Positions 769 to 32,365 of a stretch of DNA of 64,000 nucleotides are shown piece after piece. A program made the translations under genes and the position numbers. Source of the stretch: Macrocystis pyrifera (Eukaryota > Sar > Phaeophyceae > Laminariales > Laminariaceae). The first letter of the stretch is position 1, and each line of letters begins with the position of its first letter. The stretch spans positions 24,905,039 through 24,969,038 of the forward strand of contig JASSKH010000001.1 of NCBI GenBank assembly GCA_031763025.1, in the 5' to 3' direction. The notes under the pieces are model-generated. The model was not told the DNA's origin, did not search any database, and saw only the letters and a list, made by a program, of their open reading frames with translations.

Positions 769-809
769 TTACCACCGCCACCCCCCCCCCCCCCCCCCCC
801 CCCACCCCC

Positions 810-893
<84 letters not shown>

Positions 894-1727: not shown

Positions 1728-1964
1728 TACCATACAGATTAACAATACATCTGGCCGGGAACGTCTGGATCGTGAAGTGGGAATCGATCATACGCCCGAG
1801 GTGCGAGGCGCAGCGTCACGTTGCTGCTCTACATACCCTCGAGATCCATTCTTCAGACCAAAATCCAGAATACGAACCAACACGCCTCGTTGTCTCTGGC
1901 AACACTACATCACGGGTTGATTCTTTGGTGCGATTCCTGGTTCCCCAACATTCTCCCCTCCTTT

Positions 1965-3149: not shown

Positions 3150-6100
3150 TCAAGTCCGAACAGGGTCAATATAAAAAACAAAGTGCTTCGAAAAAAGACA
3201 AGCGCGAACAAACAACCCGAGCGCCTCGGGGCCGGAGTCTCCACCCACCAGGCCGAGCGTAGCCGACGGACTCCTCGACGAAACCGTTCCCGGATCAGGC
3301 GTCCCTGGAGCCGTCGTCGTCGCCGTCGTCGACTGCTCGGCGCCAGAGCTCGAAGTCATGTTGCCGGCGGCCTGCCTTCCCGCGGTCGTGTCCGGCACCA
3401 CACCGCCGCCGCCCGTAGTCGTTGTTGCACCGGTAGTCGCGCCTGTCGAAGTCGCGCCTGTTGTCGTAGTCGCGCCTGTAGTCGTTGCGCCCGTCGTCAC
3501 ACCGGTCGTCGCGCCGGTCGTTGTCGTAGCAGCCGTCGAAGTCGTCGCCGCGGCTGCGGTCGTGGTGGCGGTGGCGGCGGCGGCGGTTCCGGTGGACTCC
3601 ACCGCCACCGTCGCTCCGCCTACGGCGCCCGCAGCCGTGCCGCCGGCGACACCGGCAGTGCCGCCACCCGTGGCGGCAGCGGCGGCGCCAGCCGCCCCCC
3701 GCGCTGGTGGTGCTCACCACGCCGCCGCCAGCGGCAGGCGCGACGGCACTAGCTAGGGCAGCTCCGCTAGCGGCGCCTCCGGCACCGCCGCCGGCGCCGG
3801 CACCGCCGACAGCGGCCGCCGCGGTTGCTGCTGTGCTTGCCGCGGTGGACACGGCGGAGGTGACAGTGACCGCAGCGGCAGTGCCTACCACTGCCACCAC
3901 TACCGCGCCGGAGGCCGCCTCGCTCGTGACATCCAGAGCTTCGTCGACGCGGGTGCCGTTGGTCGGCGGCGCGGTGGGAGCCAGGGTAGACTCTACAGGG
4001 GACGCGGTGTCGCCGGGACCAGAGGGCGCAGGAGTTTCCTGGGACGGCGTCCCGCCTGTGTCGAGGGGAGTGGGAACTACGGTCGTCCCTGGAGAGCGGG
4101 TGGCGCCCGTGGGCAGGGGGGATAGGGTCGGAACGGCAACGGGTCCAGGGGTAAAGTCTGGGGCTTGCGTGGAACCCACGGGGAGGGGCGGAATGGTTGT
4201 CGCGGGTGCGGTCGTCTCTGGGGTGGTAACGGGAGCTACGGTCGCCCCTGGAAAAAGCGTGGCTCCAATTGGAAGGGGGGTGACGGTCGGTATGGATTCG
4301 GTCGGCTCGAGACTGGCAATCGGTGCCACGGTCGCCGTTGGGACTCGCGTGACACCTGCAGGAAGGGGGGTAAGGGTTTCCGTGGGTAAGGTCGGCTCTG
4401 GAGTAGGAGCAGGTGCCAAGGTTGTGCCTGGGGCGCGCGTGGTATCAACAGGAAGGGGGGGGAATGTTATTTGGAGTACGGTCGGCTCTGGAGAGGTATC
4501 CGGTGCAAAGGTTGTTTCAGGAGCAGGGGTCGCCTCGACTAAATCGGGGGCGACGGTTAATTCGGGTATGGTCGCCTCTGGAGCAGAACCCGGTGCTACG
4601 GTCGTACCTGGGGCGACTGTGGCGCCAGCCGGAATGGAGGGCAAGGTTGATGGGAGTACGGTCGGCTCTGGAGAGGTATCAGGTGCACGGGTCGTTCCTG
4701 GAACAGGCGTGGCCACGACTGGAAGGGGGGCGAAGGTTGATTCGGCTACGGTCGGCTCAAGAGTAGAAATAGGTGTCGGCTCCGGAGAGGTATCAGGTGC
4801 AAAGGTTGTTCCAGGAGTAGGGGTCGACCCGACTAAATCGGGGGCGCCGGTTAATTCGGGTATGGTCGCCTCTGGAGTAGAACCGGTGCTAGGGTCGCAC
4901 CTGGGGGGTCTGTGGCGCCAACTGGAAAGGGGGGCAAGGTTGATGGGAGTGTGGTTGGCTCTGGAGATGTACGAGGTGCAAGCGTCGTTCCTGGAACAGG
5001 CGCCAAGGTTGATTCGGCTACGGTCGGCTCTCGAGTAGAAATAGGTGTCGGCTCCGGAGAGGTATCAGGTGCAAAGGTTGTTCCAGGAGTAGGGGTCGAC
5101 CCGACTAAATCGGGGGCGCCGGTTAATTCGGGTATGGTCGCCTCTGGAGTAGAACCCGGTGCTAGGGTCGCACCTGGGGGGTCTGTGGCGCCAACTGGAA
5201 AGGGGGGCAAGGTTGATGGGAGTGTGGTTGGCTCTGGAGATGTACGAGGTGCAAGCGTCGTTCCTGGAACAGGCGCCAAGGTTGATTCGGCTACGGTCGG
5301 CTCAAGAGTAGAAATAGGTGTCGGCTCCGGAGAGGTATCAGGTGCAAAGGTTGTTCCAGGAGTAGGGGTCGACCCGACTAAATCGGGGGCGCCGGTTAAT
5401 TCGGGTATGGTCGCCTCTGGAGTAGAACCCGGTGCTAGGGTCGCACCTGGGGGGTCTGTGGCGCCAACTGGAAAGGGGGGCAAGGTTGATGGGAGTGTGG
5501 TTGGCTCTGGAGATGTACGAGGTGCAAGCGTCGTTCCTGGAACAGGCGCCAAGGTTGATTCGGCTACGGTCGGCTCTCGAGTAGAAATAGGTGTCGGCTC
5601 CGGAGAGGTATCAGGTGCAAAGGTTGTTCCAGGAGTAGGGGTCGCCTCGACTAAATCGGGGGCGCCGGTTAATTCGGGTATGGTCGCCTCTGGAGTAGAA
5701 CCCGGTGCTACGGTCGTACCTGGGGCGACTGTGGCGCCAGCTGGAATGGAGGGCAAGGTTGATGGGAGTACGGTCGGCTCTGGAGAAGTATCAGGTGCAC
5801 GGGTCGTTCTTGGAACAGGCGTGGGCACGACTGGAAGGGGGGTGAAGGTTGATTCGGGTGCGGTCGGCTGGGAAAGGGGTGTTGGGGTCGCCCCTGGGGC
5901 TCGCGTGGCACCAAGAGAAGGGGGGGGGGGGGGGGGGTGATGGGAGTACAGTCGCCTCTGGAGTAGAAACAGGTACCATGGTTGTGCCTGGGGCGCGCGT
6001 GGTACCAAAGGGAAGGGGGGCGAAGGTTGATTGGAGTAAGGTCGGCTCTGAAGTGGAAACAGGTGAAAGGCATGTATTCCTGGAGCATTCGTGGCTCCAG

Positions 6101-9100
6101 CTGAAAGGGGAGCGGAGGTTGACTTGAGTAAGGTCGGCTCTGGGGTGGTGAGGGGTGCTAGGGTCGTCCTTGGGGCTCGCGTGGCACCAACAGAAAGGGG
6201 GGCCAAGGTTGATTTGAGTACGGTCGGCTCTGCAGTGGAAATAAGCGTAAGAGTCGTTCCTGGGGCTTGTGTGGCACCCACGGGGCAAAGGTTGATTTGG
6301 GTACGATCGGCTCTGGAGTAGAAACAGGTGCTACGGTTGTCGCTGGGGCGTGCGTGGCACCAAAAGGAAGGGAAGCCAAGGTTGATTGATGTACGCTCGG
6401 CTCGGTAGTGGTACCAGGTTCAAGGGTCGTTCCTGGAGCAAGCGTGGCCCCGACTGGCAGGGGGGCGAACGTTAGTTTGGGCAAGGTCGACTCTGGAGTT
6501 AAAACAGGTGCTAAGGTCGTACCTGGGGCGTCCGTGGCCTCAGCAGGAAGGGGGGCAGAGGTTGATTGCACCGTCGGCTCTGGAGATGTATCAGGTGCAA
6601 GGGTCGGACCTGGAGCACGCGTGGCGTCAACTGGAAGGGGGGGCAAGGTTAGTGTGGGTACGGTCGGCTCTGGAGCGGTATCGGGTGCAAGGGTCGTTAC
6701 TGGGGTTTGCGTGGCACCCACGGCACGGGGTGCCGAGCTTGCCCCGGTTGGGGTCGGTTCGGGAATGGAAACAGGTGTCACGGTTGCCCCTGGGGCGTCC
6801 GTGGCGCTAACAGGAAAAGGGGACAAGGTTGATCCGAGTACGGTCGGCTCCGGGGGGGTATCAGGTGCAAAGGTTGTTCCGGGAGAAGAGGTGGCTCCGA
6901 CTGGGTTGGGGGCGACGCTTAATTCGGGTATGGTCGCCTCTGGAGTAGAAGCCGGTGCTACGGTCGTACCTGAGGAGTCTGTGGCGGCAGCAGGAAGGGG
7001 GGGCAAGTTTGATGGGAGTGTGGTTGGCTCTAGAAATGTATCAGGTGCAAGGGTCGTTCCTGGAACAGGCGCAAAGGTTGATTCGGTTACGGTCGGCTCT
7101 CGAGTAGAAATAGGTGTCGGCTCCGGAAAGGCATCAGGTGCAAAGGTTGTTCCAGGAGTAGGGGTCGCCCCGACTAAATCGGGGGCGTCGGTTAATTCGG
7201 GTATGGTCGCCTCTGGAGTAGAACCCGGTGCTAGGGGCATACCTGGGGCGTCTGTGGCGCCTGCTGGAATGGAGGGCAAGGTTGATGGGAGTACGGTCGG
7301 CTCTAGAGAGATTGATGGGAGTACGGTCGGCTCTGGAGAGGTATCAGGTGCACCAGCCGTTCCTGTAACAAGCGTGGCCACGACTGGAAGGGGGGCGAAG
7401 GTTGATTTGGCCACGGTCGGCTCTCGAGTAGAAATAGGTGTCGGCTCCGGAGAGGTATCAGGTACAAAGGTTGTTCCAGGAGTAGGGGTCGCCCCCACTA
7501 AATCGGGGGCGCCGGTTAATTCGGGTATGGTCGCCTCTGGAGTAGAACCCGGTGCTAGGGTCGTACCTGGGGCGTCAGTGGCGCCAGCTGGAATGGAGGG
7601 CAAGGTTGATGGGAGTACGGTCGGCTCTGGAGAGGTATCAGATGCACCAGCCGTTCCTGGAAAAGGCGTGGCCACGACTGGAAGGGGGGCGAAGGTTGAT
7701 TCGGCTACGGTCGGCTCTCGAGTAGAAATAGGTGTCGGCTCCGGAGAGGTATCAGGTTCAAAGGTTGTTCCAGGAGTAGGGGTCGCCCCGGCGGAATCGG
7801 GGGCGCCGGTTGATTCGGTTATGGTCGCCTCTGGAGTAGAATCCGGTGCTAGGGTCGCACCTGGTCGGTCTGTGGCGCCAACTGGAAAGGGGGGCAAGGT
7901 TGATGGGAGTGTACTTGGCTCTGGAGATGTACGAGGTGCAAGCGTCGTTTCTGGAACAGGCGCCAAGGTTGATTCGGCTACGGTCGGCTCTCGAGGAGAT
8001 ATAGGTGTCGGCTCCGGAGAGGCATCAGGTGGAAAGGTTGTTCCAGGAGTAGGGGTCGCCCCGACTAAATCGGGGGCGACGGTTGATTCGGGTATGGTCG
8101 CCTCTGGAGCAGAACCCGGTGCAAGGGTCGTACCTGGGGCGTCTGTGGCGCCAGCTGGAATGGAGGGCAAGGTTGATGGGAGTACGGTCTGCCCTGGAGA
8201 GGTATCAGGTGCACGGGTCGTTCCTGGAACAGGCGTGGTCACGACTGGAAGGGGGGCGAAGGTTGATTCGGCTACGGTCGGCTCTCGAGTAGAAATAGGT
8301 GTCGGCTCCGGAGAGGTATCAGGTGCAAAGGTTGTTCCAGGAGTAGGGGCCGCCCCGGCTAAATCGGGGGCGACGGTTAATTCGGGTATGGTCGCCTCTG
8401 GAGTAGAACCCGGTGCAAGGGTCGTACCTGGGGCGTCTGTGGCGCCAGCTGGAATGGAGGGCAAGGTTGATGGGAGTACGGTCTGCCCTGGAGAGGTATC
8501 AGGTGCACGGGTCGTTCTTGGAACCAGGCGTGGGCACGACTGGAACAGGCGCAAAGGTTGATTCGGCTACGGTCGGCTCAAGAGTAGAAATAGGTGTCGG
8601 CGCCGGAGAGGTATCCGGTGCAAAGGTTGTTCCAGGAGTAGGGGTCGCCCCGACTAAATCGGGGGCGACGGTTATTTCGGGTATGGTCGCCTCTGGAGCA
8701 GAACCCGGTGCTACGGTCGTACCTGGGGCATCTGTGGCGCCAGCTGGAATGGAGGGCAAGGTTGATGGGAGTACGGTCGGCTCTGGAGAGGTATCAGGTG
8801 CACGGGTCGTTCCTGGAATAGGTGTGGCCACGACTGGAAGGGGGGCGAAGGTTGATTCGGCTACGGTCGGCTCAAGAGTAGAAATAGGTGTCGGCTCCGG
8901 AGAGGTATCAGGTGCAAAGGTTGTTCCAGGAGTAGGGGTCGACCCGACTAAATCGGGGGCGCCGGTTAATTCCGGTATGGTCGCCTCTGGAGTAGAACCG
9001 GTGCTAGGGTCGCACGTGGGGGGTCTGTGGCGCCAGCTGGAAAGGAGGGCAAGGTTGATGGGAGTGTACTTGGCTCTGGAGATGTACGAGGTGCAAGCGT

Positions 9101-12100
9101 CGTTCCTGGAACAGGCGCCAAGGTTGATTCGGCTACGGTCGGCTGTCGAGGAGATATAGGTGTCGGCTCCGGAGAGGTATCAGGTGCAAAGGTTGTTCCA
9201 GGAGTAGGGGTCGCCCCGACTAGATCGGGGGCGACGGTTAATTCGGGTATGGTCGCCTCTGGAGTAGAACCCGGTGCAAGGGTCGTACTTGGGGCGTCTG
9301 TGGCGCCAGCTGGAATGGAAGGCAAGGTTGATGGGAGTACGGTCTGCCCTGGAGAGGTATCAGGTGCACGGGTCGTTCTCGGAACAGGCGTGGGCACGAC
9401 TGGAAGGGGGGCGAAGGTTGATTCGGCTACGGTCGGTTCTCGAGGAGATATAGGTGTCGTCTCCGGAGAGGTATCAGGTGCAAAGGTTGTTCCAGGAGTA
9501 GGGGTCGCCCCGACTAAATCGGGGGCGACGGTTGTTTCGGGTATGGTCGTCTCTGGAGTAGAACCCGGTGCAAGGGTCGTATCTGGGGCGTCGGTGGCAC
9601 TAGGTGGAATTAAGGGCAAGGTTGATGGGAGTACGGTCGGCACTGGAGAGGTATCAGGTGCACGGGTCGTTCCTGGAACAGGCGTGGCCTCGACTGGAAG
9701 GGGGGCGAAGGTTGATTCGGCTACGGTCGGCTCACGAGTAGAAAAAGATGTCGGCTCCGGAGAGGTATCAGGTGCAAAGGTTGTTCCAGGAGTAGGGGTC
9801 GCCCCGGCTAAATCGGGGGCGACGGTTAATTCGGGTATGGTCGCCTCTGGAGTAGAACCCGGTGCTAGGGTCGCACCTGGGGTGTCTGTGGCGCCAGCTG
9901 GAATGGAGGGCAAGGTCGATGGGAGTGTACTTGGCTCTGGAGAGGTATCAGGTGCACGGGTCGTTTGTGGAACAGGCGTGGCCGCCACTGGAAGGGGGGC
10001 GAAGGTTGATTCGGCTACGGTCGGCTCTCGAGTGGAGTGGAAATAGGTGTCGGCTCCGGAGAGGTATCAGGTGCTAAGGTTGTTCCAGGAGTAGGGGCCG
10101 CCCCGGCTAAATCGGGGGCGACGGTTAATTCGGGTTTGGTCGCCTCTGGAGTAGAACCCGGTGCAAGGGTCGTGCTTGGGGCGTCTGTGGCGCCAGCTGG
10201 AATGGAAGGCAAGGTTGATGGGAGTACGGTCTGCCCTGGAGAGGTATCAGGTGCACGGGTCGTTCTCGGAACAGGCGTGGGCACGACTGGAAGGGGGGCG
10301 AAGGTTGATTCGGCTACGGTCGGCTCTCGAGGAGATATAGGTGTCGGCTCCGGAGAGGTATCAGGTGCAAACGTTGTTCCAGGAGTAGGGGTCGCCCCGA
10401 CTAAATCGGGGGCGACGGTTAATTCGGGTATGGTCGCCTCTGGAGCAGAACCCGGTGCTACGGTCGTACCTGGGGCCACTGTGGCGGCAGCTGGAATGGA
10501 GGGCAAGGTCGATGCGAGTACGGTCGGCTCTGGAGAAGTATCAGGTGCACGAGTCGTTCCTGCAACAGGCGTGGGCACGACTGGAAGGGGGGCTAAGGTT
10601 GACTCTGCTACGGTCGGCTCTCGAGTAGAATTAGGTGCCGGCGCCGGAGAGGTATCAGGTGCAAAGGTTGTTTCAGGACTAGGGGTCGCCCCGACTAAAT
10701 CGGGGGCGACGGTTAATTCGGGTACGGTCGCTTCTGGAGTAGAATCCGGTGCTACGGTCGCACCTGGGGGGTCTGAGGCGCCAGCTGGAAAGGGGGGCAA
10801 GGTTGATGGGAGTGTGGTTGGCTCTGGAGATGTACGAGGGTGTAACGGTCGTTCCTGGAACAGACGCCAAGGTTGATTCGGCTACGGTCGGCTCTCGAGT
10901 AGAAATAGGTGTCGGCTCCGGAGAGGTGTCCGGTGCAAAGGTTGTTCCAGGGGTAGGGGTCGACCCGACTAAATCGGGGGCGACGGTTAATTCGGGTATG
11001 GTCGCCTCTGGAGTAGAACCCGGCTCTAGGGTCGTACCTGGGGCGTCTGTGGCGCCAGCTGGAATGGAGGGCAAGGTTGATGGGAGTACGGTCGGCTCTG
11101 GAGAGGTATCAGGTGCACGGGTCGTTCCAGGAACAGGCGTGGCCACGACTGGAAGGGGGGCGAAGGTTGATTCGGCTACGGACGGCTCTCGAGTAGAAAT
11201 AGGTGTCGGCTCCGGAGAGGTATCAGGTGCACGGGTCGTTCCTGGAACGGGTGTGGCCACGACTGGAAGGGGGGCGAAGGTTGATTCGGCTACGGTCGGC
11301 TCTGGAGTAGAACCCGGTGCTTCGGTCGAACCCGGGGCGTCTGTGGCGCCAGCTGGAATGGAGGGCAAGGTTGATGGGAGTACGGTCGGCTCTGGAGAGG
11401 TATCAGGTTCACGGGTCGTTCCTGGAACAGGTCTGGCCTCGACCGGAAGGGGGGCTAAGGTTGATTCGGCTACGGTCGGCTCAAGAGTAGAAATAGGTGT
11501 CGGCTCCTGAGAGGTATCAGGTGGAAAGGTTGTTCCAGGAGTAGGGGTCGCCCCGACTAAATCGGGGGCGACGGTTGATTCGGGTATGGTCGCCTCTGGA
11601 GTAGAACCCGGTGCTTCGGTCGAACCTGGGGCGTCTGTGGCGCCAGCTGGAATGGAGGGCAAGGTTGATGGGAGTACGGTCGGCTCTGGAGAGGCATCAG
11701 GTGCACGGGTCGTTCCTGGAACAGGCGTGGCCACGACTGGAAGGGGGGCTAAGGTTGATTCGGCTACGGTCGGCTCTCGAGTAGAAATAGGTGTCGGCTC
11801 CGGAGAGGTATCAGGTGCAACGGTTGTTCCAGGAGTAGGGCTCGTCACGGCAAAATCGGGGGCGACGGTTAATTCGGGTATGGTCGCCTCTGGAGTAGAA
11901 CCCGGTGCCAGGGTCGTACCTGGGGCGTCAGTGGCGCCAGCTGGAAAGGGGGGCAAGGTTGATGCGAGTGTACTTGGCTCTGGAGAGGTATCAGGTGCAC
12001 GGGTCGTCCCTGGAACAGGCGTGGCCGCGACTGGAAGGGGGGCGAAGGTTGATTCGGCTACGGTCGGCTCTCGAGCAGAAATAGGTGTCGGCTCCGGAGA

Positions 12101-15100
12101 GGTATCAGGTGCAAAGGTTGTTCCAGGAGTAGGGGTCGTCCCGGCTAAATCGGGGGCGACGGTTAATTCGGGTATGGTCGCCTCTGGAGTAGAACCCGGT
12201 GCAAGGGTCGTACCTGGGGCGTCTGTGGCGCCAGCTGGAAAGGGGGGCAAGGTTGATGGGAGTCTACTTGGCTCTAGAGAGGTATCAGGTGCACCAGTCG
12301 TTCCTGGAACAGGCGTGGCCGCGACTGGAAGGGGGGGCGAAGGTTGATTCGGCTACGGTCGGCTCTCGTGTAGAAATAGGTGTCGGCTCCGGAGAGGTAT
12401 CAGGTGGAAAGGTTGTTCCAGGAGTAGGGGTCGCCCCGACTAAATCGGGGGCGACGGTTAATTCGGGTATGGTCGCCTCTGGAGTAGAACCCGGTGCAAG
12501 GGTAGAACCCGGGGCGTCTGTGGCGCCAGCTGGAATGGAGGGCAAGGTTGATGGGAGTACGGTCGGCACTGGAGAGGTATCAGGTGCACCAGTCGTTCCT
12601 GGAACAGGCGTGGTCACGACTGGAAGCGGGGCTAAGGTCGATTCGGCTACGGTCGGCTCAAGAGTAGAAATAGGTGTCGGATCCGGAGAGGTATCAGGTG
12701 CAAAGGTTGTTCCGGGAGTAGGGGTCGCCGAGGCTAAATCGGGGGCGACGGTTAATTCGGGTATGGTCGCCTCTGGAGTAGAACCCGGTGCAAGGGTAGA
12801 ACCCGGGGCGTCTGTGGCGCCAGCTGGAATGGAGGGCAAGGTTGATGGGAGTACGGTCGGCACTGGAGAGGTATCAGGTGCACCAGTCGTTCCTGGAACA
12901 GGAGTGGCCGCGACTGGAAGGGGGGCGAAGGTTGATTCGGCTACGGTCGGCTCAAGAGTAGAAATAGGTGTCGGCGCCGGAGAGGTATCAGGTAAGGTTG
13001 TTCCAGGAGCAGGGGTCGCCCCGACTAAATCGGGGGCGACGGTTGATTCGGGTATGGTCGCCTCTGGAGTAGAACCCGGTGCTTCGGACGAACCTGGGGC
13101 GTCTGTGGCGCCAGCTGGAATGGAGGGCAAGGTTGATGGGAGTACGGTCGGCTCCGGAGAGATATCAGGTGCACGGGTCGTTCCTGGAACAGGCGTGGCC
13201 ACGACTGGAAGGGGGGCGAAGGTCGATTCGGCTACGGTCGGCTCAAGAGTGGAAATAGGTGTCGGCTCCGGAGAGGTATCAGGTGCAACGGTTGTTCCTG
13301 GAACGGGTGTGGCCACGACTGGAAGGGGGGCGAAGGTTGATTCGGCTACGGTCGGCTCTGGAGTAGAACCCGGTGCTTCGGTCGAACCCGGGGCGTCTGT
13401 GGCGCCAGCTGGAATGGAGGGCAAGGTTGATGGGAGTACGGTCGGCTCTGGAGAGGCATCAGGTTCACGGGTCGTTCCTGGAACAGGTCTGGCCTCGACC
13501 GGAAGGGGGGCTAAGGTTGATTCGGCTACGGTCGGCTCAAGAGTAGAAATAGGTGTCGGCTCCTGAGAGGTATCAGGTGGAAAGGTTGTTCCAGGAGTAG
13601 GGGTCGCCCCGACTAAATCGGGGGCGACGGTTGATTCGGGGTATGGTCGCCTCTGGAGTAGAACCCGGTGCTTCGGTCGAACCTGGGGCGTCTGTGGCGC
13701 CAGCTGGAATGGAGGGCAAGGTTGATGGGAGTACGGTCGGCTCTGGAGAGGCATCAGGTGCACGGGTCGTTCCTGGAACAGGCGTGGCCACGACTGGAAG
13801 GGGGGCTAAGGTTGATTCGGCTACGGTCGGCTCTCGAGTAGAAATAGGTGTCGGCTCCGGAGAGGTATCAGGTGCAACGGTTGTTCCAGGAGTAGGGCTC
13901 GTCACGGCAAAATCGGGGGCGACGGTTAATTCGGGTATGGTCGCCTCTGGAGTAGAACCCGGTGCCAGGGTCGTACCTGGGGCGTCAGTGGCGCCAGCTG
14001 GAAAGGGGGGCAAGGTTGATGCGAGTGTACTTGGCTCTGGAGAGGTATCAGGTGCACGGGTCGTCCCTGGAACAGGCGTGGCCGCGACTGGAAGGGGGGC
14101 GAAGGTTGATTCGGCTACGGTCGGCTCTCGAGTAGAAATAGGTGTCGGCTCCGGAGAGGTATCAGGTGCAAAGGTTGTTCCAGGAGTAGGGGTCGTCCCG
14201 GCTAAATCGGGGGCGACGGTTAATTCGGGTATGGTCGCCTCTGGAGTATAACCCGGTGCAAGGGTCGTACCTGGGGCGTCTGTGGCGCCAGCTGGAAAGG
14301 GGGGCAAGGTTGATGGGAGTCTACTTGGCTCTAGAGAGGTATCAGGTGCACCAGTCGTTCCTGGAACAGGCGTGGCCGCGACTGGAAGGGGGGCGAAGGT
14401 TGATTCGGCTACGGTCGGCTCTCGTGTAGAAATAGGTGTCGGCTCCGGAGAGGTATCAGGTGGAAAGGTTGTTCCAGGAGTAGGGGTCGCCCCGACTAAA
14501 TCGGGGGCGACGGTTAATTCGGGTATGGTCGCCTCTGGAGTAGAACCCGGTGCAAGGGTAGAACCCGGGGCGTCTGTGGCGCCAGCTGGAATGGAGGGCA
14601 AGGTTGATGGGAGTACGGTCGGCACTGGAGAGGTATCAGGTGCACCAGTCGTTCCTGGAACAGGCGTGGTCACGACTGGAAGCGGGGCTAAGGTCGATTC
14701 GGCTACGGTCGGCTCAAGAGTAGAAATAGGTGTCGGATCCGGAGAGGTATCAGGTGCAAAGGTTGTTCCGGGAGTAGGGGTCGCCGAGGCTAAATCGGGG
14801 GCGACGGTTAATTCGGGTATGGTCGCCTCTGGAGTAGAACCCGGTGCAAGGGTAGAACCCGGGGCGTCTGTGGCGCCAGCTGGAATGGAGGGCAAGGTTG
14901 ATGGGAGTACGGTCGGCACTGGAGAGGTATCAGGTGCACCAGTCGTTCCTGGAACAGGAGTGGCCGCGACTGGAAGGGGGGCGAAGGTTGATTCGGCTAC
15001 GGTCGGCTCAAGAGTAGAAATAGGTGTCGGCGCCGGAGAGGTATCAGGTAAGGTTGTTCCAGGAGCAGGGGTCGCCCCGACTAAATCGGGGGGGCGACGG

Positions 15101-21100: not shown

Positions 21101-24100
21101 AGGTGCACCAGTCGTTCCTGGAACAGGCGTGGCCGCGACTGGAAGGGGGGCGAAGGTTGATTCGGCTACGGTCGGCTCAAGAGTAGAAATAGGTGTCGGC
21201 TCCGGAGAGGTATCAGGTGCAAAGGTTGTTCCAGGAGTAGGGGTCGTCCCGGCTAAATCGGGGGCGACGGTTAATTCGGGTATGGTCGCCTCTGGAGTAG
21301 AACCCGGTGCCAGGGTCGTATCTGGGGGGTCTGTGGCGCCAGCTGGAAAGGGGGGCAAGGTTGATGGGAGTGTACTTGGCTCTGGAGAGGTATCAGGTGC
21401 ACGGGTCGTTCTTGGAACAGGCGTGGCCGCGACTGGAAGGGGGGCGAAGGTTGATTCGGCTACGGTCGGCTCAAGAGTAGAAATAGGTGTCGGCTCCGGA
21501 GAGGTATCAGGTGCAAAGGTTGTTCCAGGAGTAGGGGTCGTCCCGGCTAAATCGGGGGCGACGGTTAATTCGGGTATGGTCGCCTCTGGAGTAGAACCCG
21601 GTGCCAGGGTCGTACCTGGGGCGTCTGTGGCGCCAGCTGGAATGGAGGGCAAGGTTGATGGGAGTACGGTCGGCTCTGGAGAGGTATCAGGTGCACGAGT
21701 CGTTCTTGGAACAGGCGTGGCCACGACTGGAAGGGGGGCGAAGGTTGATTCGGCTACGGTCGGCTCTCGAGTGGAAATAGGTGTCGGCTCCGGAGAGGTA
21801 TCAGGTGCAACGGTTGTTCCAGGAGTAGGGGTCGTCCCGGCTAAATCGGGGGCGACGGTTAATTCGGGTATGGTCGCCTCTGGAGTAGAACCCGGTGCCA
21901 GGGTCGTACCTGGGGCGTCTGTGGCGCCAGCTGGAAAGGGGGGCAAGGTTGATGGGAGTGTACTTGGCTCTGAAGAGGTATCAGGTGCACCAGTCGTTCC
22001 TGGAACAGGCGTGGCCGCGACTGGAAGGGGGGCGAAGGTTGATTCGGCTACGGTCGGCTCAAGAGTAGAAATAGGTGTCGGCTCCGGAGAGGTATCAGGT
22101 GCAAAGGTTGTTCCAGGAGTAGGGGTCGTCCCGGCTAAATCGGGGGCGACGGTTAATTCGGGTATGGTCGCCTCTGGAGTAGAACCCGGTGCCAGGGTCG
22201 TATCTGGGGGGTCTGTGGCGCCAGCTGGAAAGGGGGGCAGGGTTGATGGGAGTGTACTTGGCTCTGGAGAGGTATCAGGTGCACGGGTCGTTCTTGGAAC
22301 AGGCGTGGCCGCGACTGGAAGGGGGGCGAAGGTTGATTCGGCTACGGTCGGCTCAAGAGTAGAAATAGGTGTCGGCTCCGGAGAGGTATCAGGTGCAAAG
22401 GTTGTTCCAGGAGTAGGGGTCGTCCCGGCTAAATCGGGGGCGACGGTTGATTCGGGTATGGTCGCCTCTGGAGTAGAACCCGGTGCCAGGGTCGTACCTG
22501 GGGCGTCAGTGGCGCCAGCTGGAAAGGGGGGCAAGGTTGATGGGAGTGTACTTGGCTCTGAAGAGGTATCAGGTGCACCAGTCGTTCCTGGAACAGGCGT
22601 GGCCACGACTGGAAGGGGGGCGAAGGTTGATTCGGCTACGGTCGGCTCAAGAGTAGAAATAGGTGTCGGCTCCGGAGAGGTATCAGGTGCAAAGGTTGTT
22701 CCAGGAGTAGGGGTCGTCCCGGCTAAATCGGGGGCGACGGTTGATTCGGGTATGGTCGCCTCTGGAGTAGAACCCGGTGCCAGGGTCGTACCTGGGGCGT
22801 CAGTGGCGCCAGCTGGAAAGGGGGGCAAGGTTGATGGGAGTGTACTTGGCTCTGAAGAGGTATCAGGTGCACCAGTCGTTCCTGGAACAGGCGTGGCCAC
22901 GACTGGAAGGGGGGCGAAGGTTGATTCGGCTACGGTCGGCTCAAGAGTAGAAATAGGTGTCGGCTCCGGAGAGGTATCAGGTGCAAAGGTTATTCCAGGA
23001 GTAGGGGTCGTCCCGGCTAAATCGGGGGCGACGGTTAATTCGGGTATGGTCGCCTCTGGAGTAGAACCCGGTGCCAGGGTCGTATCAGGGGGGTCTGTGG
23101 CGCCAGCTGGAAAGGGGGGCAAGGTTGATGGGAGTGTACTTGGCTCTGGAGAGGTATCAGGTGCACGGGTCGTTCCTGGAACAGGCGTGCCCACGACCGG
23201 AAGGGGGGCGAAGGTTGATTCAGCTACGGTCGGCTCTCGTGTAGAAATAGGTGTCGGCTCCGGAGAGGTATCAGGTGCAAAGGTTGTTCCAGGAGTAGGG
23301 GTTGCCCCGACTAAATCGGGGGCGACGGTTGATTCGGGTATGGTCGCCTCTGGAGTAGAACTCGGTGCTACGGTCGCATCTGGGGGGTCTGTGGCGCCAG
23401 CTGGAATGGAGGGCAAGGTTGATGGGAGTGTGGTGGGCTCTGGAGATGTACGAGGTGCAACGGTCGTTCCTGGAACAGGCGCCAAGGTCGATGCGGCTAC
23501 GGTCGGCTCAAGAGTAGAAATAGGTGTCGGTTCCGGAGAGGTATCAGGTGCAAAGGTTGTTCCAGGAGTAGGGGCCGCCCCGACTAAATCGGGGGCGGCG
23601 GTTAATTCGGGTATGGTCGCCTCTGGAGTAGAACCCGGTGCTACGGTCGTACCTGGGGCGTCTGTGGCGCCAGCTGGAATGGAGGGCAAGGTTGATGAGA
23701 GTACGGTCGGCTCTGGAGAGGTATCAGGTGCACGGGTCGTTCCTGGAACAGGCGTGGCCACGACTGGAAGGGGGGCTAAGGTTGATTCGGCTACGGTCGG
23801 CTCAAGAGTAGGAATAGGTGTCGGATCCGGAGAGGTATCAGGTAAGGTTGTTCCAGGAGCAGGGGTCGCCCCGACTAAATCGGGGGCGACGGTTGATTCG
23901 GGTATGGTCGCCTCTGGAGTAGAACCCGGTGCTTCGGTCGAACCCGGGGCGTCTGTGGCGCCAGCTGGAATGGAGGGCAAGGTTGATGGGAGTACGGTCG
24001 GCTCTGGAGAGGTATCAGGTGCACGGGTCGTTCCAGGAACAGGCGTGGCCACGACTGGAAGGGGGGCGAAGGTTGATTCGGCTACGGTCGGCTCTCGAGT

Positions 24101-27100
24101 GGAAATAGGTGTCGGCTCCGGAGAGGTATCAGGTGCAAAGGTTGTTCCAGGAGAAGGGGTCGTCCCGGCTAAATCGGGGGCGACGGTTAATTCGGGTATG
24201 GTCGCCTCTGGAGTAGAACCCGGTGCCAGGGTCGTTCCTGGGGGGTCTGTGGCGCCAGCTGGAAAGGGGGGCAAGGTTGATGGGAGTGTACTTGGCTCTG
24301 GAGAGGCATCAGGTGCACGGGTCGTTCCTGGAACAGGCGTGGCCGCGACTGGAAGGGGGGCGAAGGTTGATTCGGCTACGGTCGGCTCTCGAGTAGAAAT
24401 AGGTGTCGGCTCCGGAGAGGTATCAGGTGCAAAGGTTATTCCAGGAGTAGGGGTCACCACGACTAAATCGGGCGCGACGGTTAATTCGGGTATGGTCGCC
24501 TCTGGAGTAGAACCCGGCGCTAGGGTCGTACCTGGGGCGTCTGTGGCGCCAGCTGGAATGGAGGGCAAGGTTGATGGGAGTACGGTCGGCTCTGGAGAGG
24601 TATCAGGTGCACGGGTCGTTCCTGGAACAGGCGTGGCCACGACTGGAAGGGGGGCTAAGGTTGATTCGGCTACGGTCGGCTCAAGAGTAGGAATAGGTGT
24701 CGGATCCGGAGAGGTATCAGGTAAGGTTGTTCCAGGAGCAGGGGTCGCCCCGACTAAATCGGGGGCGACGGTTGATTCGGGTATGGTCGCCTCTGGAGTA
24801 GAACCCGGTGCTTCGGTCGAACCCGGGGCGTCTGTGGCGCCAGCTGGAATGGAGGGCAAGGTTGATGGGAGTACGGTCGGCTCTGGAGAGGTATCAGGTG
24901 CACGGGTCGTTCCAGGAACAGGCGTGGCCACGACTGGAAGGGGGGCGAAGGTTGATTCGGCTACGGTCGGCTCTCGAGTGGAAATAGGTGTCGGCTCCGG
25001 AGAGGTATCAGGTGCAAAGGTTGTTCCAGGAGAAGGGGTCGTCCCGGCTAAATCGGGGGCGACGGTTAATTCGGGTATGGTCGCCTCTGGAGTAGAACCC
25101 GGTGCCAGGGTCGTTCCTGGGGGGTCTGTGGCGCCAGCTGGAAAGGGGGGCAAGGTTGATGGGAGTGTACTTGGCTCTGGAGAGGCATCAGGTGCACGGG
25201 TCGTTCCTGGAACAGGCGTGGCCACCACTGGAAGGGGGGCGAAGGTTGATTCGGCTACGGTCGGCTCTCGAGTAGAAATAGGTGTCGGCTCCGGAGAGGT
25301 ATCAGGTGCAAAGGTTATTCCAGGAGTAGGGGTCACCACGACTAAATCGGGCGCGACGGTTAATTCGGGTATGGTCGCCTCTGGAGCAGAACCCGGCGCT
25401 AGGGTCGTACCTGGGGCGTCTGTGGCGCCAGCTGGAATGGAGGGCAAGGTTGATGGGAGTACGGTCGGCACTGGAGAGGTATCAGGTGCACCAGTCGTTC
25501 CTGGAACAGGCGTGGCCACGACTGGAAGGGGGGCGAAGGTTGATTCGGCTACGGTCGGCTCAAGAGTAGAAATAGGTGTCGGCTCCGGAGAGGTATCAGG
25601 TGCAAAGGTTGTTCCAGGAGTAGGGGTCGCCCCGACTAAATCGGGGGCGACGGTTAATTTGGGTATGGTCGCCTCTGGAGTAGAACCCGGTGCCCGGGTC
25701 GTACCTGGGGCGTCTGTGGCGCCAGCTGGAATGGAGGGCAAGGTTGATGGGAGTGTACTTGGCTCTGGAGAGGTATCAGGTGCACGGGTCGTTCCTGGAA
25801 TAGGCGCGGCCACGACTGGAAGGGGGGCGAAGGTCGATTCGGCTACGGTCGGCTCTCGAGGAGGAATAGGTGTCGGCTCCTGAGAGGTATCAGGTGCAAA
25901 GGTTGTTCCAGGAGTAGGGGTCGTCTCGGCTAAATCGGGGGGCGACGGTTAATTCGGGTATGGTCGCCTCTGGAGTAGAACCTGGTGCCAGGGTCGTGCC
26001 TGGGGGGTCTGTGGCGCCAGCTGGAAAGGGTGGCAAGGTTGATGGGAGTACGGTCGGCTCTGGAAAGGCATCAGGTGCACCAGTCGTTCCTGGAACAGGC
26101 GATGTCGCGACTGGAAGGGGGGCGAAGGTTGATTCGGCTACGGTCGGCTCAAGAGTAGAAATAGGTGTCGGCTCCGGAGAGGTGTCAGGTGCAAAGGTTG
26201 TTCCAGGGGTAGGGGTCGCCTCGACTAAATCGGGGGCGACGGTTAATTCGGGTATGGTCGCCTCTGGAGTAGATCCCGGCGCTAGGGTCGTACCTGGGGC
26301 GTCTGTGGCGCCAGCTGGAATGGAGGGCAAGGTTGATGGGAGTACGGTCGGCTCTGGAGAAGTATCAGGTGCACGGGTCGTTCCTGGAACAGGCGTGGCC
26401 ACGACTGGAAGGGGGGCGAAGGTTGATTCGGCTACGGTCGGCTCTCGAGGAGAAATAGGTGTCGGATCCGGAGAGGTATCAGGTGCAAAGGTTGTGTCAG
26501 GAGTAGGGGTCGCCCCGGCTAAATCGGGGGCGACGGTTGATTCGGGTATGGTCGCCTCTGGAGTAGAACCCGGTGCTACGGTCGTACCTGGGGCGTCTGT
26601 GGCGCCAGCTGGAACGGAGGGCAAGGTTGATGGGAGTACGGTCGGCACTGGAGAGGTATCAGGTGCACGGGTCGTTCCTGGAACAGGCGTGGCCACGACT
26701 GGAAGGGGGGCGAAGGTTGATACGACTACGGTCGGCTCTCGAGTAGAAATAGGTGTCGGCTCCGGAGAGGTATCAGGTGGAAAGGTTGTTCCAGGAGTAG
26801 GGGTCGCCCCGACTAAATCGGGGCCGACGGTTGATTCGGGTATGGTCGCCTCTGGAGTAGAACCCGGTGCTACGGTCGTACCTGGGGGGTCTGTGGCGCC
26901 AGCTGGAAAGGGGGGCAAGGTTGATGGGAGTACGGTCGGCTCTGGAGATGTATCAGGTGCAAGGGTCGTTCCTGGAACAGGCGTGCCCACGACTGGAAGG
27001 GGGGCGAAGGTTGATTCGGCTACGGTCGGCTTTCGAGTAGGAATAGGTGTCGGCTCCGGAGAGGTATCAGGTGCAAAGGTTGTTCCAGGAGTAGGGGTCG

Positions 27101-28257
27101 CCCCGACTAAATCGGGGGCGACGGTTGATTCGGGTATGGTCGCCTCTGGAGTAGAACCCGGTGCTACGGTCGTACCTGGGGCGTCTGTGGCGCCAGCTGG
27201 AATGGAGGGCAAGGTTGATGGGAGTACCGTCGGCTCTGGAGATGTATCAGGTGCACCAGTCGTTCCTGGAACAGGCGTGGCCACGACTGGAAGGGGGGCG
27301 AAGGTTGATTCGGCTACGGTCGGCGCTCGAGTAGAAATAGGTGTCGGCTCCGGAGAGGTATCAGGTGGAAAGGTTGTTCCAGGAGTAGGGGCCGCCCCGA
27401 CTAAATCGGGGGCGACGGTTAATTCGGGTATGGTCGCCTCTGGAGTAGAACCCGGTGCTAGGGTCGTACCTGGGGCGTCTGTGGCGCCAGCTGGAATGGA
27501 GGGCAAGATTGATGGGAGTACGGTCGGCTCTGGAGAGGTATCAGGTGCACGGGTCGTTCCTGGAACAGGCGTGGCTACGACTGGAAGGGGGGCTAAGGTT
27601 GATACGGCTACGGTCGGTTCTCGAGTAGAAATAGGTGTCGGCTCCGGAGAGGTATCTGGTGCAAAGGTTATTCCAGGAGTAAGGGTCGCCTCGACTAAAT
27701 CGGGGGCGATGGTTAATTCGGGTATGGTCGCCTCTGGAGTAGAACCCGGTGCCAGGGTCGTACCTGGGGCGTCTGTGGCGCCAGCTGGAATGGAAGGAAA
27801 AATTGATGGGAGTATGGTCGTCTCTGCAGAGGTATCAGGTGCACGGGTCGTTCCTGGAACAGGCGTGGCCACGACTGAAAGGGGGGCGAAGGTTGGTTCG
27901 GTTACGGTCGGCTCTCGAGTAGAAATAGGTGTCGTGGTTGTCGCTGGGGTGTCCGTGGTGCCAGCAGGAACGGGGGTCAAGGTTGAGGTTGATGTGAGTA
28001 CGGTCGGCTCTTGAGTGGAAACAGGTGATAGGGTCGTCGTACCTGGCTGGTCCGTCCCGCCAGGAGCGACCGATGGACTGTTGGCAGGTGAAGGCGATGG
28101 AGACGCCGCGGGTTCAAGGGTCATTCTCGAAGGGGGCGGCGTCTCTCCGGAGCCAACGTCGGGGAAGTCTCGGGGGAAACGCTGGACGACGGTGAAGGCG
28201 CTGGCGTTGGCGTGATACCAGGCGAGGGAGTCGTGCTCGGGTTAGGCGTTTGGTCGC
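3150..28257 (-). CDS. Exon 4: the 98-residue repeat array and C-terminus
   Basis: The acceptor GCCCAG ends at 28258. The exon joins in phase 1 to give PGDQTPNPSTTPSPGITPTP. After a small frame slip near 28140 it reads TPPPSRMTLEPAASPSPSP and enters the array. Each 98-residue unit has three sub-blocks, with cores PGTTFAPDTSPEPTPIS, PGTTRAPDTSPEPTVLPS and PGTTLAPGSTPEATIPEL, joined by spacers such as STREPTVAESTFAPLP and PAGATDA. Near the end, after NGTRVDEALDVTSEA, a hydrophobic stretch (GAVVVAVVGTAAAVTVTSAV, about 3925-3845) could be a membrane helix. An Ala/Thr/Gly tail follows. The final residues before the stop (LFVRACLFSKHFVFYIDPV) differ in composition and may be intron read-through, because a possible donor (CTG then GTGGGT) lies near 3247. 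Confidence 0.75.
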
Positions 28258-31200
28258 CTGGGCGGCGGGGACGGCGGCGGCAGCGGCGGCGGCAAGGGAA
28301 GGGGGGGGGGGTTAGGGTTCCGCAACGGTGAGGTTGACGACGACGGCGACGGCGCGACGGCTACGGTGGAAAAGGCAACGCGAGGGGAAGGGTAGGGGTA
28401 GCTGTGGTCATGACTACTGCTACCACGATGACTATGTTTATGGCTGTAGCTGAGGACACCGATGTGGCTGAGGGAAAACCCATGAACAACAAACGACGAC
28501 GACTACTACTACGACGGCGACGACAACGATGACGGCGACGGCGCAGTGGGGCCAGGGAAAAACGGGGACATCATCGATCGCGGAACGGTCACGGTATTCA
28601 AGGTTAAGGTCACGTTTAGAGTTCGTGTTTGCTTTCGCACTTAGCGCGCTCTGCACGGACACATTATACGCACCTGGGGGGAGGGAAACAGCTGTAGGGA
28701 CCGGTGTCGCGGTGGCTGGTGCGACCGGTAACGCCGTCGGGCTAGGCGTGGGCGTAGCCTCCGGGATTGTGGGGGGAACCGTCCCAGTAATGAGGGTGGG
28801 GGTCGGCTCGAGGGTCGGCTCGAGGGTGGGCATGACGGTGGCCGACGCAACGGGCAAAGGCACTGAGCTAGGCATAGGCGTTTCTGCCGCGGCGGGCAAA
28901 GGCGTGGAGCTAGGAACAGGCGCAGTGCTAGGCACAGGCGTTTCTGCCGTGACGGGCAAATCCGTCGATCTAGGCATAGGCGTTTCTGCCACGATGGGCG
29001 AACCCGTCGAGCTAATCGTAGGCACGGGCGTTTCTCGCGCTAAGGGCAAAGCCGTAGGCATGGGCGTCACTTCTGGCATTGAGGGGGGAACTGTCAAAAC
29101 AGTCGGCGTGGGGGTCGGCGCGGGGGTCAGGGGAGTGCCCGGGGTGGCAATGGGCGCGTCGGTGATCGTACCTGGGGCTGGGGTAGGTGGCGCTGAAGTG
29201 GGCGGAAACGTAGCTGTTGCGGGAGCCACAGAAGGGGGTGCGGGAGGCTCAGAAGGAGCGGGAGCCTCAGTAGGAGATGGGGCGGGCAACTCAGTGGGTG
29301 TGGGGGTGGTTGTAGGAGGTTCGGGCGTTTCGGTAGGAGAAGGCGCCGTCGTTGGGGGGGGGGCGGTGGCGGGCGCTGGAGACGGCACCACAACCGCGCT
29401 TGGCCGCGGAGTCGGTGCAGTCTCCGGGGTCGGCGCGAGCGTAGGCTCCGGATCCGGCTCTGTCGGCGACGGCGTCGTGCGTATCTCCGAGGGCGCAGGG
29501 GTCGTAGGCGCAGTGCTGGGGACGATCGGGATATCCACGGGCGTAACCGACGGCGTTTCTGCAGGAGACGGAGTGGGGCTCGAGGTCCCTTCCTGAATAT
29601 ATTCGACGGAGGAAGATGGGCATGGGGGGAGGGGGAGGGCAGGGAGGGGGGGGGGGGCGGGGGGAGGGGAGGGCGGGGAGGGGAGAGAGATAGAGGGAGG
29701 GAAAGAGGTGAGGGGGGAGGGTGAACGGACGACGGCCCACACGGTCAGAGATTCCCGTTGGGGGTACGAGGTATAGGTGATGGATATGACAATCGGTGCA
29801 GCGGTGCATCGCTATGTACCTAGTCATCTCTACAAATACTCCAGATACCCACCGTGCCCGTCAAGCATCCCCCCAAAATTCAGTCCCAAAATTACCAACT
29901 GAATAGAGCGCTCTTAAGGTACCGCTGGCCGCCCACCAACCCCCCCGCCGCAGCCACCGCCCCCCGTCGCAGCCACCGCCCCCCGTCGCAGCCACCCCCC
30001 CCCCCACAGCCACCGTCATCGATCCGACCGCTAAACAATCCCAAACTGACCTATTAATAGTACTGAACACAGGGTTCTCAAGGCACCACTGGGCGCCCAC
30101 CCCCGCCTTACCACCACCACTACCGATGCCCCCGCGCCGTTTCCACCGTCGGATAACTCACCTGCAGCACGCGTTTATTGGCCGGCATCTTATCCACCAC
30201 CGGTGTAGGCAGCATTTCGAAGAACTCGCTTTCTATCACGTCTTCGACACCGGCGGCCACAGCTCCCTTTCTAACGTTTCCTCGCCTGGCGTTGCCTTCC
30301 CCTCCTCCTCCTCCCGCTCCCGTCCCTCCTCCTCCTTCTCGCATTCCTCCTGCTGTTCTCCCTCTAATTAGGCTTACTTCTCCTCCATCTCTTACCTCTG
30401 TCCCTCTTACTCTCCCTCCTCTGAGACGCGGGCTCAGGCGCGGCGCGGAGGCGTCGCCACCGCCCCTAAGACCCGCCCCTCCCCCCTCTAGACCGTCAGC
30501 GGACCTCGGTGCCGGCGTCATTTCTCCGCTTTCGCCTCCGCGCTCCCTTCTTCCCCTGTCGGCGGCGCTCGATCGTCCAGGAGACATGACTTCGCCGCCG
30601 CTGCTACCACCGCCACCACCACAACCACCGATACCACTACCAACACCACCACCACTACCACCACCACCACGAACACTACCACCACCACCACCATCACCAC
30701 CTTTCAACCGGTATTCGGTATCCCGGTCGCCGACCGAAGAAATGTCATCGACGCCGCCACCGCTGCCGACGCTACCGGCGTCAAGGGCGGTCGAATCCGT
30801 CGCCTCGTCGAGACCAGCATACGGCGCCGAGGATGTCACAGCAGAAGCAGCAGCGCTTGACAGCGCCGCACCCACAAGCACGGCGAGAGCGCCAGCGGCT
30901 AACGTCGTCCCGCTCCCCCACTAAGGTCACCGCCCCTGCCCCTGCCACCACCACCACCGCCTTGCTCCACCGACCCCACCTCCTTCCTGCGAGAAAAATC
31001 TACCGCCATGCCATCTACCGCCGTACCATCACCACCAGCACCTTCGCCACCACCCCTGCTATCCCGCCTGAGCCGCTCACCGTCACCTCGCCGTCCAGGC
31101 CGCCCCTGGTCAACGACAACACCACCGTTGCTGCTGCTGACGTCAGGCCATCCAACCAAACGCGCACGCGGCTCGCACCGATAGCACCCGCTGCCGCTGC

Positions 31201-31855: not shown

Positions 31856-31890
<35 letters not shown>

Positions 31891-32365
31891 TGCGGCCAGC
31901 ACCATCAAACAAAAAAAATAATAACCACAACTTTACAAAACCAATTTTTGAAGAAAAAAAAAACAAACGCGACCCTCAACCCTCAACCCTCAACGCTGTT
32001 AAAATGAAAACGTTGAAGAATCATGACAACGACGACAAACAAATGAAAAGGACAGGCGACGGCAACGATGGACGACGGTACTACGATATACGGTACGGGT
32101 GCCGTACCATGCACACCAACCAGCACAGGCCACGACTCACGTGTAGCAGCGTCGCTGTTCGCGAGGACGGCAACCGCCCGGCTGAAGGCGGCGACGGCGA
32201 CGACCCCGTCGACGCCGCGGCCAATCCAAGAATAAGCGAAAGAACGGAGGAGATGGACAGCAATCGACCTCCAAACGACTTCCCGCCCCCGGCTACACGC
32301 GCGGCCAAGCCCCGGGAAAATCCCCCGGGTAACCCCCCGGCAGAGCCGGCCGAGCTGGGTGCCAT
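3150..32365 (-). CDS. Giant Thr/Pro-rich tandem-repeat secreted protein (four-exon model, frame-disrupted)
   Basis: The proposed gene reads leftwards with exons 32365-32141, 30920-30162, 29592-28674 and 28257-3150. The three junctions are GT-AG with matching phases (0, 0, 1). The translation has a hydrophobic N-terminal segment, a Gly-rich spacer, a Pro/Thr-rich stretch, about 80 copies of a 98-residue repeat rich in TP, SP, AP and PEPT motifs, then an Ala/Thr/Gly-rich C-terminus with a hydrophobic run. Dense Thr/Ser/Pro without structured domains is typical of O-glycosylated mucin-like proteins; AP/SP/TP dipeptides are also arabinogalactan-protein glycomodules. A wall, matrix or adhesive role is therefore likely but unproven. 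Total length would be about 9,000 residues. About fifteen small indels interrupt the frame, so as assembled it cannot be read through. The strand is supported by splice phases, by absence of point nonsense changes on this strand, and by mucin-like composition. Exon 1 and the exact acceptor of exon 2 are the least certain parts. Confidence 0.7.
4890..5560 (-). repeat. 273-bp variant unit in three near-identical copies
   Basis: GTCTGTGGCGCCAACTGG starts at 4908, 5181 and 5454, a strict 273-bp period. The unit lacks 21 bp (7 residues) compared with the common 98-residue unit. It encodes the variant VPGTTLAPRTSPEPTTLPS with PFPVGATDPP. The near-identity of the three copies indicates recent local expansion. 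Confidence 0.9.
5920..5937. repeat. G18 homopolymer inside the array
   Basis: An 18-base G run lies inside coding repeat sequence. Together with a slip near 6077 it shifts the minus-strand reading frame and then restores it. It may be a collapse or error site. Confidence 0.9.
11239..15345 (-). repeat. 2,055-bp block of seven repeat units duplicated in tandem
   Basis: Block 11239-13293 is repeated almost exactly at 13294-15345. Diagnostic variants recur at a constant offset of about 2055 bp: GGCTCCTGAGAGG at 11503 and 13557, GTCGGATCCGGAGAGG at 12675 and 14732, TCGGACGAACC at 13083 and 15140. By eye there are fewer than ten differences, and several are extra G residues in G runs (13637, 12331, 15087). 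It is either a very recent duplication or an assembly duplication. Confidence 0.85.
28258..28673 (-). other. Intron 3 of the giant gene
   Basis: The 416-bp GT-AG interval (GTGCGT to CCCAG) is phase 1 on both sides. Read as coding sequence it would give Val-rich and Asp/Arg-rich low complexity. It contains triplet-rich GACGACGAC/GCGGCGGCG sequence and a G10 run at about 28300. Confidence 0.6.
28674..29592 (-). CDS. Exon 3 of the giant repeat protein, Pro/Thr-rich
   Basis: The acceptor TTCAG at 29597-29593 follows a very long C/T-rich tract on the minus strand (29700-29620). The exon starts EGTSSPTPSPAETPSVTP and continues for 306 codons of Pro/Thr/Ala/Ser with short internal repeats of the type AETPVPS and LPVAAETPMPSS (about 19-22 residues apart). 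It ends CTCCCCCCAG then GTGCGT (donor at 28673) in phase 1. The phase agrees with exon 2 (0) on one side and exon 4 (1) on the other. Reading past the donor quickly gives unrelated, Val-rich sequence, which supports splicing there. Confidence 0.65.
29593..30161 (-). other. Intron 2 of the giant gene, with minisatellite
   Basis: It is bounded by GTGAGT and TTCAG. It contains about four copies of a 20-bp G/C-rich unit (plus strand CCCCCCGTCGCAGCCACCG, 29940-30012) and, near the acceptor, a 70-base almost pure pyrimidine tract on the coding strand. A diverged direct repeat (CCCACC-ended, 29875-29940 and 30030-30105) flanks the minisatellite. Confidence 0.55.
30162..30920 (-). CDS. Exon 2 of the giant repeat protein (candidate)
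   Basis: The frame has a stop (TAG) at the proposed acceptor and no ATG, so it must be entered by splicing. The acceptor CCTTAG before TGG at 30920 gives a 253-codon exon in phase 0. The exon ends at an excellent donor, CTGCAG then GTGAGT (intron from 30161). The peptide starts with a hydrophobic stretch (TLAAGALAVLVGAALSSAA), then an acidic/Ser part (DEATDSTALDAGS), a long Gly/Arg-rich low-complexity part, and ends EFFEMLPTPVVDKMPANKR then VLQ. The ending looks like ordinary globular protein. The Gly-rich centre corresponds to CCA/CCACCACC microsatellite DNA and might conceal a further intron. Confidence 0.5.
30921..32140 (-). other. Intron 1 of the giant gene (candidate), with a CAA microsatellite
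   Basis: It is bounded by GTGAGT (32140) and CCTTAG (30921). It includes a (CAA)n tract at 31858-31890 and G/A-rich stretches at 31605-31650. Open frames here on the minus strand (30990-31460) are Gly/Arg-rich. A second good acceptor (TTTTTCTCGCAG, near 30988) could define an additional or alternative exon. Confidence 0.4.
32141..32365 (-). CDS. Exon 1 of the giant repeat protein (candidate)
   Basis: An ATG at 32365-32363 (context CGCATGG) opens 75 codons that end exactly at a consensus donor, CAC followed by GTGAGT (intron from 32140). The peptide starts MAPSSAGSAGGLPGGFSRG, has a basic stretch (AARVAGGGKSFGGR), then the hydrophobic run LLSISSVLSLILGLAAA followed by small and Pro residues. 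This looks like a signal peptide or signal anchor with a long N-region. The frame is open further upstream but has no ATG in the part examined. Linkage to exon 2 rests only on phase (0 to 0) and on the need for a start codon, since exon 2 has none. Confidence 0.45.

Follow-up and report, generated by a model that had tools for sequence, protein, structure and literature searches.

A candidate gene for a giant, probably membrane-anchored surface protein with Thr/Pro-rich tandem repeats

The window analysed here is a 64,000-nucleotide stretch of DNA (contig JASSKH010000001.1, positions 24,905,039 to 24,969,038 of the forward strand; coordinates below are those of the window), a large part of which is taken up by tandem copies of a 98-residue Thr/Pro-rich unit that can be read on the minus strand. 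We consider it moderately likely that these repeats, together with exon-like sequences on either side, make up one minus-strand gene for a giant membrane-anchored glycosylated surface protein with Thr/Pro tandem repeats. By length, the putative exons within the window amount to 75 + 253 + 306 + ~8,180 + 44 codons, or about 8,860 in all. The array is real, and a giant gene is likely to be.

The tandem array and its reading frame

Tandem Repeats Finder reports a dominant array with a period of 294 bp, 70.4 copies and 92% matches at 7312-27934, and more diverged copies at 4384-7071; a search with the unit finds matches all along 3719-28257. Near-full units number 75 after exclusion of matches that cover 280 unit positions or fewer or are weaker than E 1e-30. 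The exact length of 294 bp (98 codons) is found in 52 of the 75, 67 are distinct, and pairwise identity averages 92.3% (range 84.6-100%), which bears out the tandem array of a 98-residue Thr/Pro-rich unit first noticed on this strand in a preliminary description of the sequence. The homogeneous core of the array (7312..27934, minus) is defined by the unit consensus and by periods of 294, 114 and 90 bp, all of them multiples of three. The consensus peptide of 98 residues can be divided into sub-repeats of 30, 38 and 30 codons (periods 90 and 114), and a pattern-based split yields pieces of 30 residues in 135 of 164 cases and of 38 residues in 14.

The composition of the array, computed over the 8,085 residues of the minus-strand frame segments, is dominated by Pro (22.7%), Thr (20.7%), Ala (12.5%) and Ser (8.0%); Pro, Ala, Ser and Thr (PAST) together account for 64% of the residues, and Pro, Thr and Ser (PTS) for 51%. 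Acidic residues outnumber basic ones by 800 to 140, there are two Cys and no Trp, and the dipeptides AP, TP, SP and VP occur 474, 365, 158 and 95 times, respectively. Pro is mostly single (1,708 instances, with 63 double), and the longest run is two. Structure prediction for the unit, with six similar sequences as input, gave a mean predicted local distance difference test score (pLDDT) of 60.8 and a predicted template modelling score (pTM) of 0.14; the model contains no helix of four residues and no strand of three, and the unit is thus predicted, with low confidence, to be without regular structure. With this composition and this predicted lack of structure, a tandem-repeat protein of roughly 9,000 residues, akin to mucins or arabinogalactan proteins (AGPs), as originally proposed, remains the best reading of the locus.

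Blocks of exact repetition are also present in the array (705 bp at a spacing of seven units, 646 bp at three, and 494 bp at seven), and their whole-unit spacing suggests recent unequal exchange.

The length of open reading frames (ORFs) is uninformative on coding or on strand because the plus strand is open across the same array: the longest ORFs are 1,676 residues on the minus strand and 1,625 on the plus strand, and long ORFs were accordingly ruled out as proof of coding. A stop test was made on the 59 deletion-free units, over consensus columns and with inserted bases omitted. Stops occur in none of the 59 units in minus frame 0, in 4 of 59 in plus frame 1, and in every unit in the four remaining frames. 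None of the 233 distinct variants creates a stop in minus frame 0, where 3.6 would be expected under the same mutation spectrum (Poisson chance about 0.03).

Two further measures were given up as evidence of coding or of strand. The ratio of nonsynonymous to synonymous substitution rates (dN/dS) between sub-repeats, computed on 96 distinct 90-bp sub-units (164 pieces were found, 121 of them distinct, and those with stops were removed beforehand), is, in bins of increasing distance, 0.87, 0.81, 1.08, 0.68 and 0.58 in the minus frame, and 0.79, 0.80, 1.10, 0.55 and 0.55 in plus frame 1; since frames filled with stops reach 0.47, as low as the open ones, this comparison has no power. With a loose threshold, a scan of GC content at third codon positions returned 69 stretches, most of them plus-strand array sequence, where the high-scoring frame is interrupted by stops in all 59 units. 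The coding strand is settled by the ends of the gene, not by the array. Minus-strand coding is favoured, because minus frame 0 is free of stops in all 59 units and because coding-like sequence lies at both ends.

The two ends of the gene model

Exon 4 of the model (3718..28257, minus) comprises the array and a diverged 3' part. Its length corresponds to 8,180 codons, and the sequence as it stands changes frame 15 times. The frame in which the array ends is stop-free from 4896 to 3718 and includes a segment that resembles a transmembrane helix by hydropathy (3850..3906, minus): the best 19-residue hydropathy value is 2.16 and 12 windows exceed 1.5, compared with none in the other 14 array segments. 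This segment is followed by a GTGAGC donor at 3717, which is in phase 0 and in phase with exon-like sequence at 427-296. The candidate intron between the two, proposed from sequence and a junction scan (428..3717, minus; GTGAGC...TTTTCCAG), would have phase 0 on both sides, and the putative next exon (296..427, minus), bounded by TTTTCCAG and by GTAAGT at 295, would encode 44 codons of a peptide of ordinary complexity, with GC contents of 0.52, 0.25 and 0.93 at first, second and third positions of the codon. Among 20,318 stop-free 44-codon windows outside 3700-30000, eight pass a filter for such features and all eight overlap 296-427, a rarity that is descriptive, as the filter was built on the features of this exon after it had been seen. 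The gene would then continue past 296-427 beyond the left edge of the window. Inside the presumed intron, at 781-893, there is a 113-base run that is 96% C on the plus strand and may limit sequence quality.

An end of the gene near 3150, where the preliminary description had placed it, is probably wrong. With such an end, the same repeat gene would encode a soluble wall, matrix or adhesive glycoprotein, and 427-296 would belong to another gene. A Thr/Ala/Gly-rich frame is open to a stop near 3150, and the intron at 428-3717 is itself conjectural; however, one more frame change would be needed to enter that frame, while the frame leaving the array passes without a stop into the helix-like segment and the donor, and 296-427 is the next exon on the same strand and phase-compatible. 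We have therefore set aside a C terminus near 3150 in favour of the splice at 3717, and a membrane anchor is likelier than a secreted product, which we consider unlikely, if the best of the alternatives. The suggestion of a wall, matrix or adhesive protein thus holds as far as a repeat surface protein is concerned, with the amendment that it is probably membrane-anchored and that its C terminus lies outside the window.

At the 5' side, putative exon 1 (32141..32365, minus), proposed from translation, junction and hydropathy, has an ATG, includes a hydrophobic stretch at about 32210-32263, and ends at a GTGAGT donor at 32140. Judged by eye and by hydropathy, the stretch resembles a signal peptide. 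The second exon (30162..30920, minus) is open and phase-compatible, and encodes a Gly/Arg-rich low-complexity peptide with another hydrophobic stretch at 30846-30902, the strongest hydrophobic window across exons 1-3. Exon 3 (28674..29592, minus), recognised by translation and composition, lies outside the array and is again Thr/Pro-rich, with 94 Pro and 64 Thr in 306 residues and a longest Pro run of three. A smaller tandem repeat with periods of 60 and 42 bp, each divisible by three, is found by Tandem Repeats Finder within this exon at 28867-29014.

The three GT-AG junctions with agreeing phases on which this part of the model was first built do exist and are phase-compatible. Their agreement carries little weight, since many GT/AG pairs are phase-compatible: 197 of 416 candidate pairs at junction 1 (exons 1 and 2) and 106 of 264 at junction 2 (exons 2 and 3). 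At these two junctions, to which the count was confined, no pair passes a stricter donor/acceptor filter, the originally proposed ones included.

Weighing the model

Several observations count against a single membrane-anchored gene. The 3.3-kb join at the 3' end is one of 58 phase-compatible pairs among 145 candidates and one of six that pass a stricter filter, and in three of these six the donor is the one at 3888, within the helix-like segment. The acceptor of exon 2 has no pyrimidine tract, and the GC contents of this exon by codon position are 0.71, 0.67 and 0.51; both the exon and its acceptor are doubtful. Searches of Pfam, PDB, IMG/VR and GTDB confirmed no homologue. Within the array, dN/dS is 0.88 when distinct variants are counted and 1.09 when all occurrences are, a sign of weak amino-acid constraint. 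Indels occur 25 times in the units, and in 11 cases their length is not divisible by three; the other 14, which count in favour of the model, come from two recurrent deletions (21 bp in eight units, 3 bp in six). That these are two recurrent deletions and not 14 independent ones, together with a frame break that two units have in common, makes the single gene slightly less likely and a pseudogene or satellite DNA slightly more so. This break, a one-base loss common to units 9070-8778 and 4955-4663, may be inherited and real. Finally, there are the 15 frame changes, of which 14 lie inside the array, dividing it into 15 segments, and one lies upstream near 28141, where the frame originally proposed for exon 4 runs into a stop. 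The earlier statement that the array is open on the minus strand apart from small indels has to be qualified by these frame changes and by the openness of the plus strand. Overall, the frame of the array is kept while its amino-acid sequence drifts almost freely, a combination that is common in mucin-like repeats.

The same frame changes, along with the near-neutral dN/dS, would be expected if the locus were a decaying pseudogene of a giant protein, disabled by them, which we regard as rather unlikely. Decay should also yield stops, yet the frame segments contain three stops in 8,085 codons, each within five codons of a segment end (short gaps between segments are outside this count). Eleven of the breaks fall within the 75 aligned units. 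In nine of these 11 the neighbouring base has been gained or lost once or twice, in seven of the nine within runs of at least three; the remaining two, a single G within a C run and a 5-base insertion resembling a tandem copy, are not of this simple kind and, like the break shared by two units, fit decay better. Four of the 11 frame-broken units have a sister unit that differs by no more than one substitution and is without the break, which points to an error in sequencing or to a change of very recent origin. A block of about 2.1 kb copied seven units away, its extent set by an identity scan, has 11 substitutions, eight of them in the first 100 bases; after these bases come the other three and three gaps, each gap in a G/C run. 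In a second copied block, of 879 bp, there are three substitutions and no gap, which speaks against an error reading of the breaks, as changes in runs are then not found in every recent copy. On balance, errors of sequencing or very recent changes are favoured over old decay, though not proven.

Non-coding satellite or minisatellite DNA, open on both strands by an accident of composition, would account for the nearly equal ORFs on the plus strand, the weak amino-acid constraint and the satellite-like copied blocks, but it is quite improbable, given the absence of stops and of stop-making variants from minus frame 0, the Thr/Pro-rich stretch at 28674-29592 outside the array, and the coding-like 3' end on the same strand.

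If the membrane-anchored gene is accepted, its product would begin with a secretion signal and a Thr/Pro-rich stretch and continue with about 75 PTS repeats of 98 residues, followed by a transmembrane helix; the C-terminal region after it would lie mostly outside the window. Thr, Ser and hydroxylated Pro would bear dense O-glycans that hold the chain extended. With a rise of 3.1 Å per residue, as given for a polyproline II chain in PMC11015965, an array of about 8,100 residues could span up to about 2.5 micrometres. At the plasma or flagellar membrane, such a chain might form a long anchored brush or filament that serves in coating, in adhesion, or in coupling the matrix outside to the membrane. 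The copy number would shift through unequal exchange of whole units with the frame preserved, altering the length of the filament.

Relation to known proteins and significance

The 98-residue unit had been described as belonging to no named family, and the searches made of Pfam, PDB, IMG/VR and GTDB turned up nothing similar, a partial test with eukaryote protein collections outside its scope. In viral contigs (IMG/VR) there were 36 pattern-matching stretches for the unit and in genome contigs (GTDB) 485, none of them confirmed; a 58-residue C-terminal query gave 91 and 588 such stretches, respectively, again with none confirmed (records of the window's own genome may have been excluded from these contig searches). 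PDB searches produced no convincing match for an array ORF (best E 0.23) or for exon 296-427 (best E 1.4), and low-complexity Ala/Gly matches for a C-terminal composite (best E 0.036). No Pfam family was found in the three pieces of the model that were scanned. The repeat is not named in the titles or abstract openings among the matches listed in literature searches.

The closest known design is that of MST3 from Chlamydomonas reinhardtii (Cre06.g309951), presumably the same as the protein named Mstax elsewhere; the architectures are alike as far as the window reaches. According to PMC11015965, MST3 is a central mastigoneme protein of 8,572 residues. It has a likely signal peptide and a PKD-like transmembrane domain, and its 42 Pro-rich repeats, in which P13 and P11(XXP)3 motifs occur, were proposed by the authors to set the maximum length of the mastigoneme. 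Compared with that account, the candidate protein shares the giant size, the likely signal peptide, the long Pro-rich tandem-repeat ectodomain, a membrane region towards the C terminus and, if our reading is right, an extended filament. Unlike MST3 as there described, it has no P13 or P11(XXP)3 motifs, its Pro runs not exceeding two in the array and three in exon 3. Of the C-terminal region, in which a PKD-like domain would decide on kinship, the window holds one helix-like segment and 44 further codons, with no convincing match in Pfam or PDB; the C terminus lies beyond the window. SIP, the partner by which the MST3 domain of Chlamydomonas is completed, was not detected beyond the green algae according to PMC10846610, and an identical MST3 complex elsewhere is therefore less likely. 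It seems doubtful that the protein is an independent counterpart of MST3, possibly outside green algae, in which a micrometre-long glycosylated filament fused to a channel-like (PKD/TRP-like) membrane domain would couple the outside matrix or flagellar hairs to a channel; no channel-like domain is visible within the window.

Several other families offer partial likenesses. Membrane-bound mucins, such as MUC4, carry long tandem repeats of Thr, Ser and Pro with the membrane anchor behind them, and the present model has long Thr/Ser/Pro repeats and an anchor-like segment in the same order; the PTS tandem repeats predicted (with the low confidence of the unit model) to be without a fixed fold are also mucin-like. 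Unlike mucins, the scanned pieces contain no Pfam domains, and we know of no mucin unit of similar length or sequence. Classical AGPs are matched in PAST content and in the AP, SP, TP and VP dipeptides. The glycosylphosphatidylinositol (GPI) signal at the very C terminus of these proteins looks less likely here, as more coding-like sequence comes after the hydrophobic segment; the true C terminus is outside the window. The array protein is also far larger than any AGP core known to us. The brown-algal AGP-like core proteins (Herve et al. 2016, as cited in PMC8307928) are similar, to the extent described there, in having AGP-type backbone motifs in an algal surface protein, and differ in that the three pieces of the model contain no Pfam domain such as WSC. 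To judge by intron style and composition, the host may be a brown alga. The helix-like segment and the exon after it may resemble the C-terminal parts of surface proteins from stramenopiles, a likeness on which the model does not draw.

Elsewhere in the window, two minus-strand ORFs match reverse transcriptase (Pfam RVT_1), at 38145-39665 (E 1.1e-13) and 51105-51998 (E 7.1e-34). The peptides at 38694-38927 and 50793-50954 are nearly identical, and the two are therefore likely to be copies of one retroelement family. Reverse transcriptase was found in two of 63 ORFs scanned with Pfam, mostly picked by length, out of 193 of at least 75 residues outside the array; in a separate scan of six stretches, two gave reverse transcriptase above the cut-off, and the others gave weak matches below it or none. 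A reverse transcriptase ORF had no match in viral contigs. In the window as a whole, no Rfam family reached its gathering score and no tRNA was found by a tRNA search. Short stretches that look similar by eye, with motifs like 'tatatagg' and 'ggacccc(c)gta', occur outside the array at about 1610-1720, 32690-32750 and 35200-35300, and perhaps represent a dispersed element.

Giant surface proteins with PTS repeats are already known as a kind, and the present repeat unit is unmatched in the searches made. The array is a hard test for assembly and for gene prediction. If the model is true, it describes a membrane-anchored PTS-repeat protein of about 9,000 residues, with an unmatched 98-residue unit, encoded largely by one 24.5-kb exon, and the length of an extracellular filament would be governed by unequal exchange of whole units. 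If, moreover, the host is not a green alga, the giant-ectodomain design of MST3 would have arisen or spread more widely.

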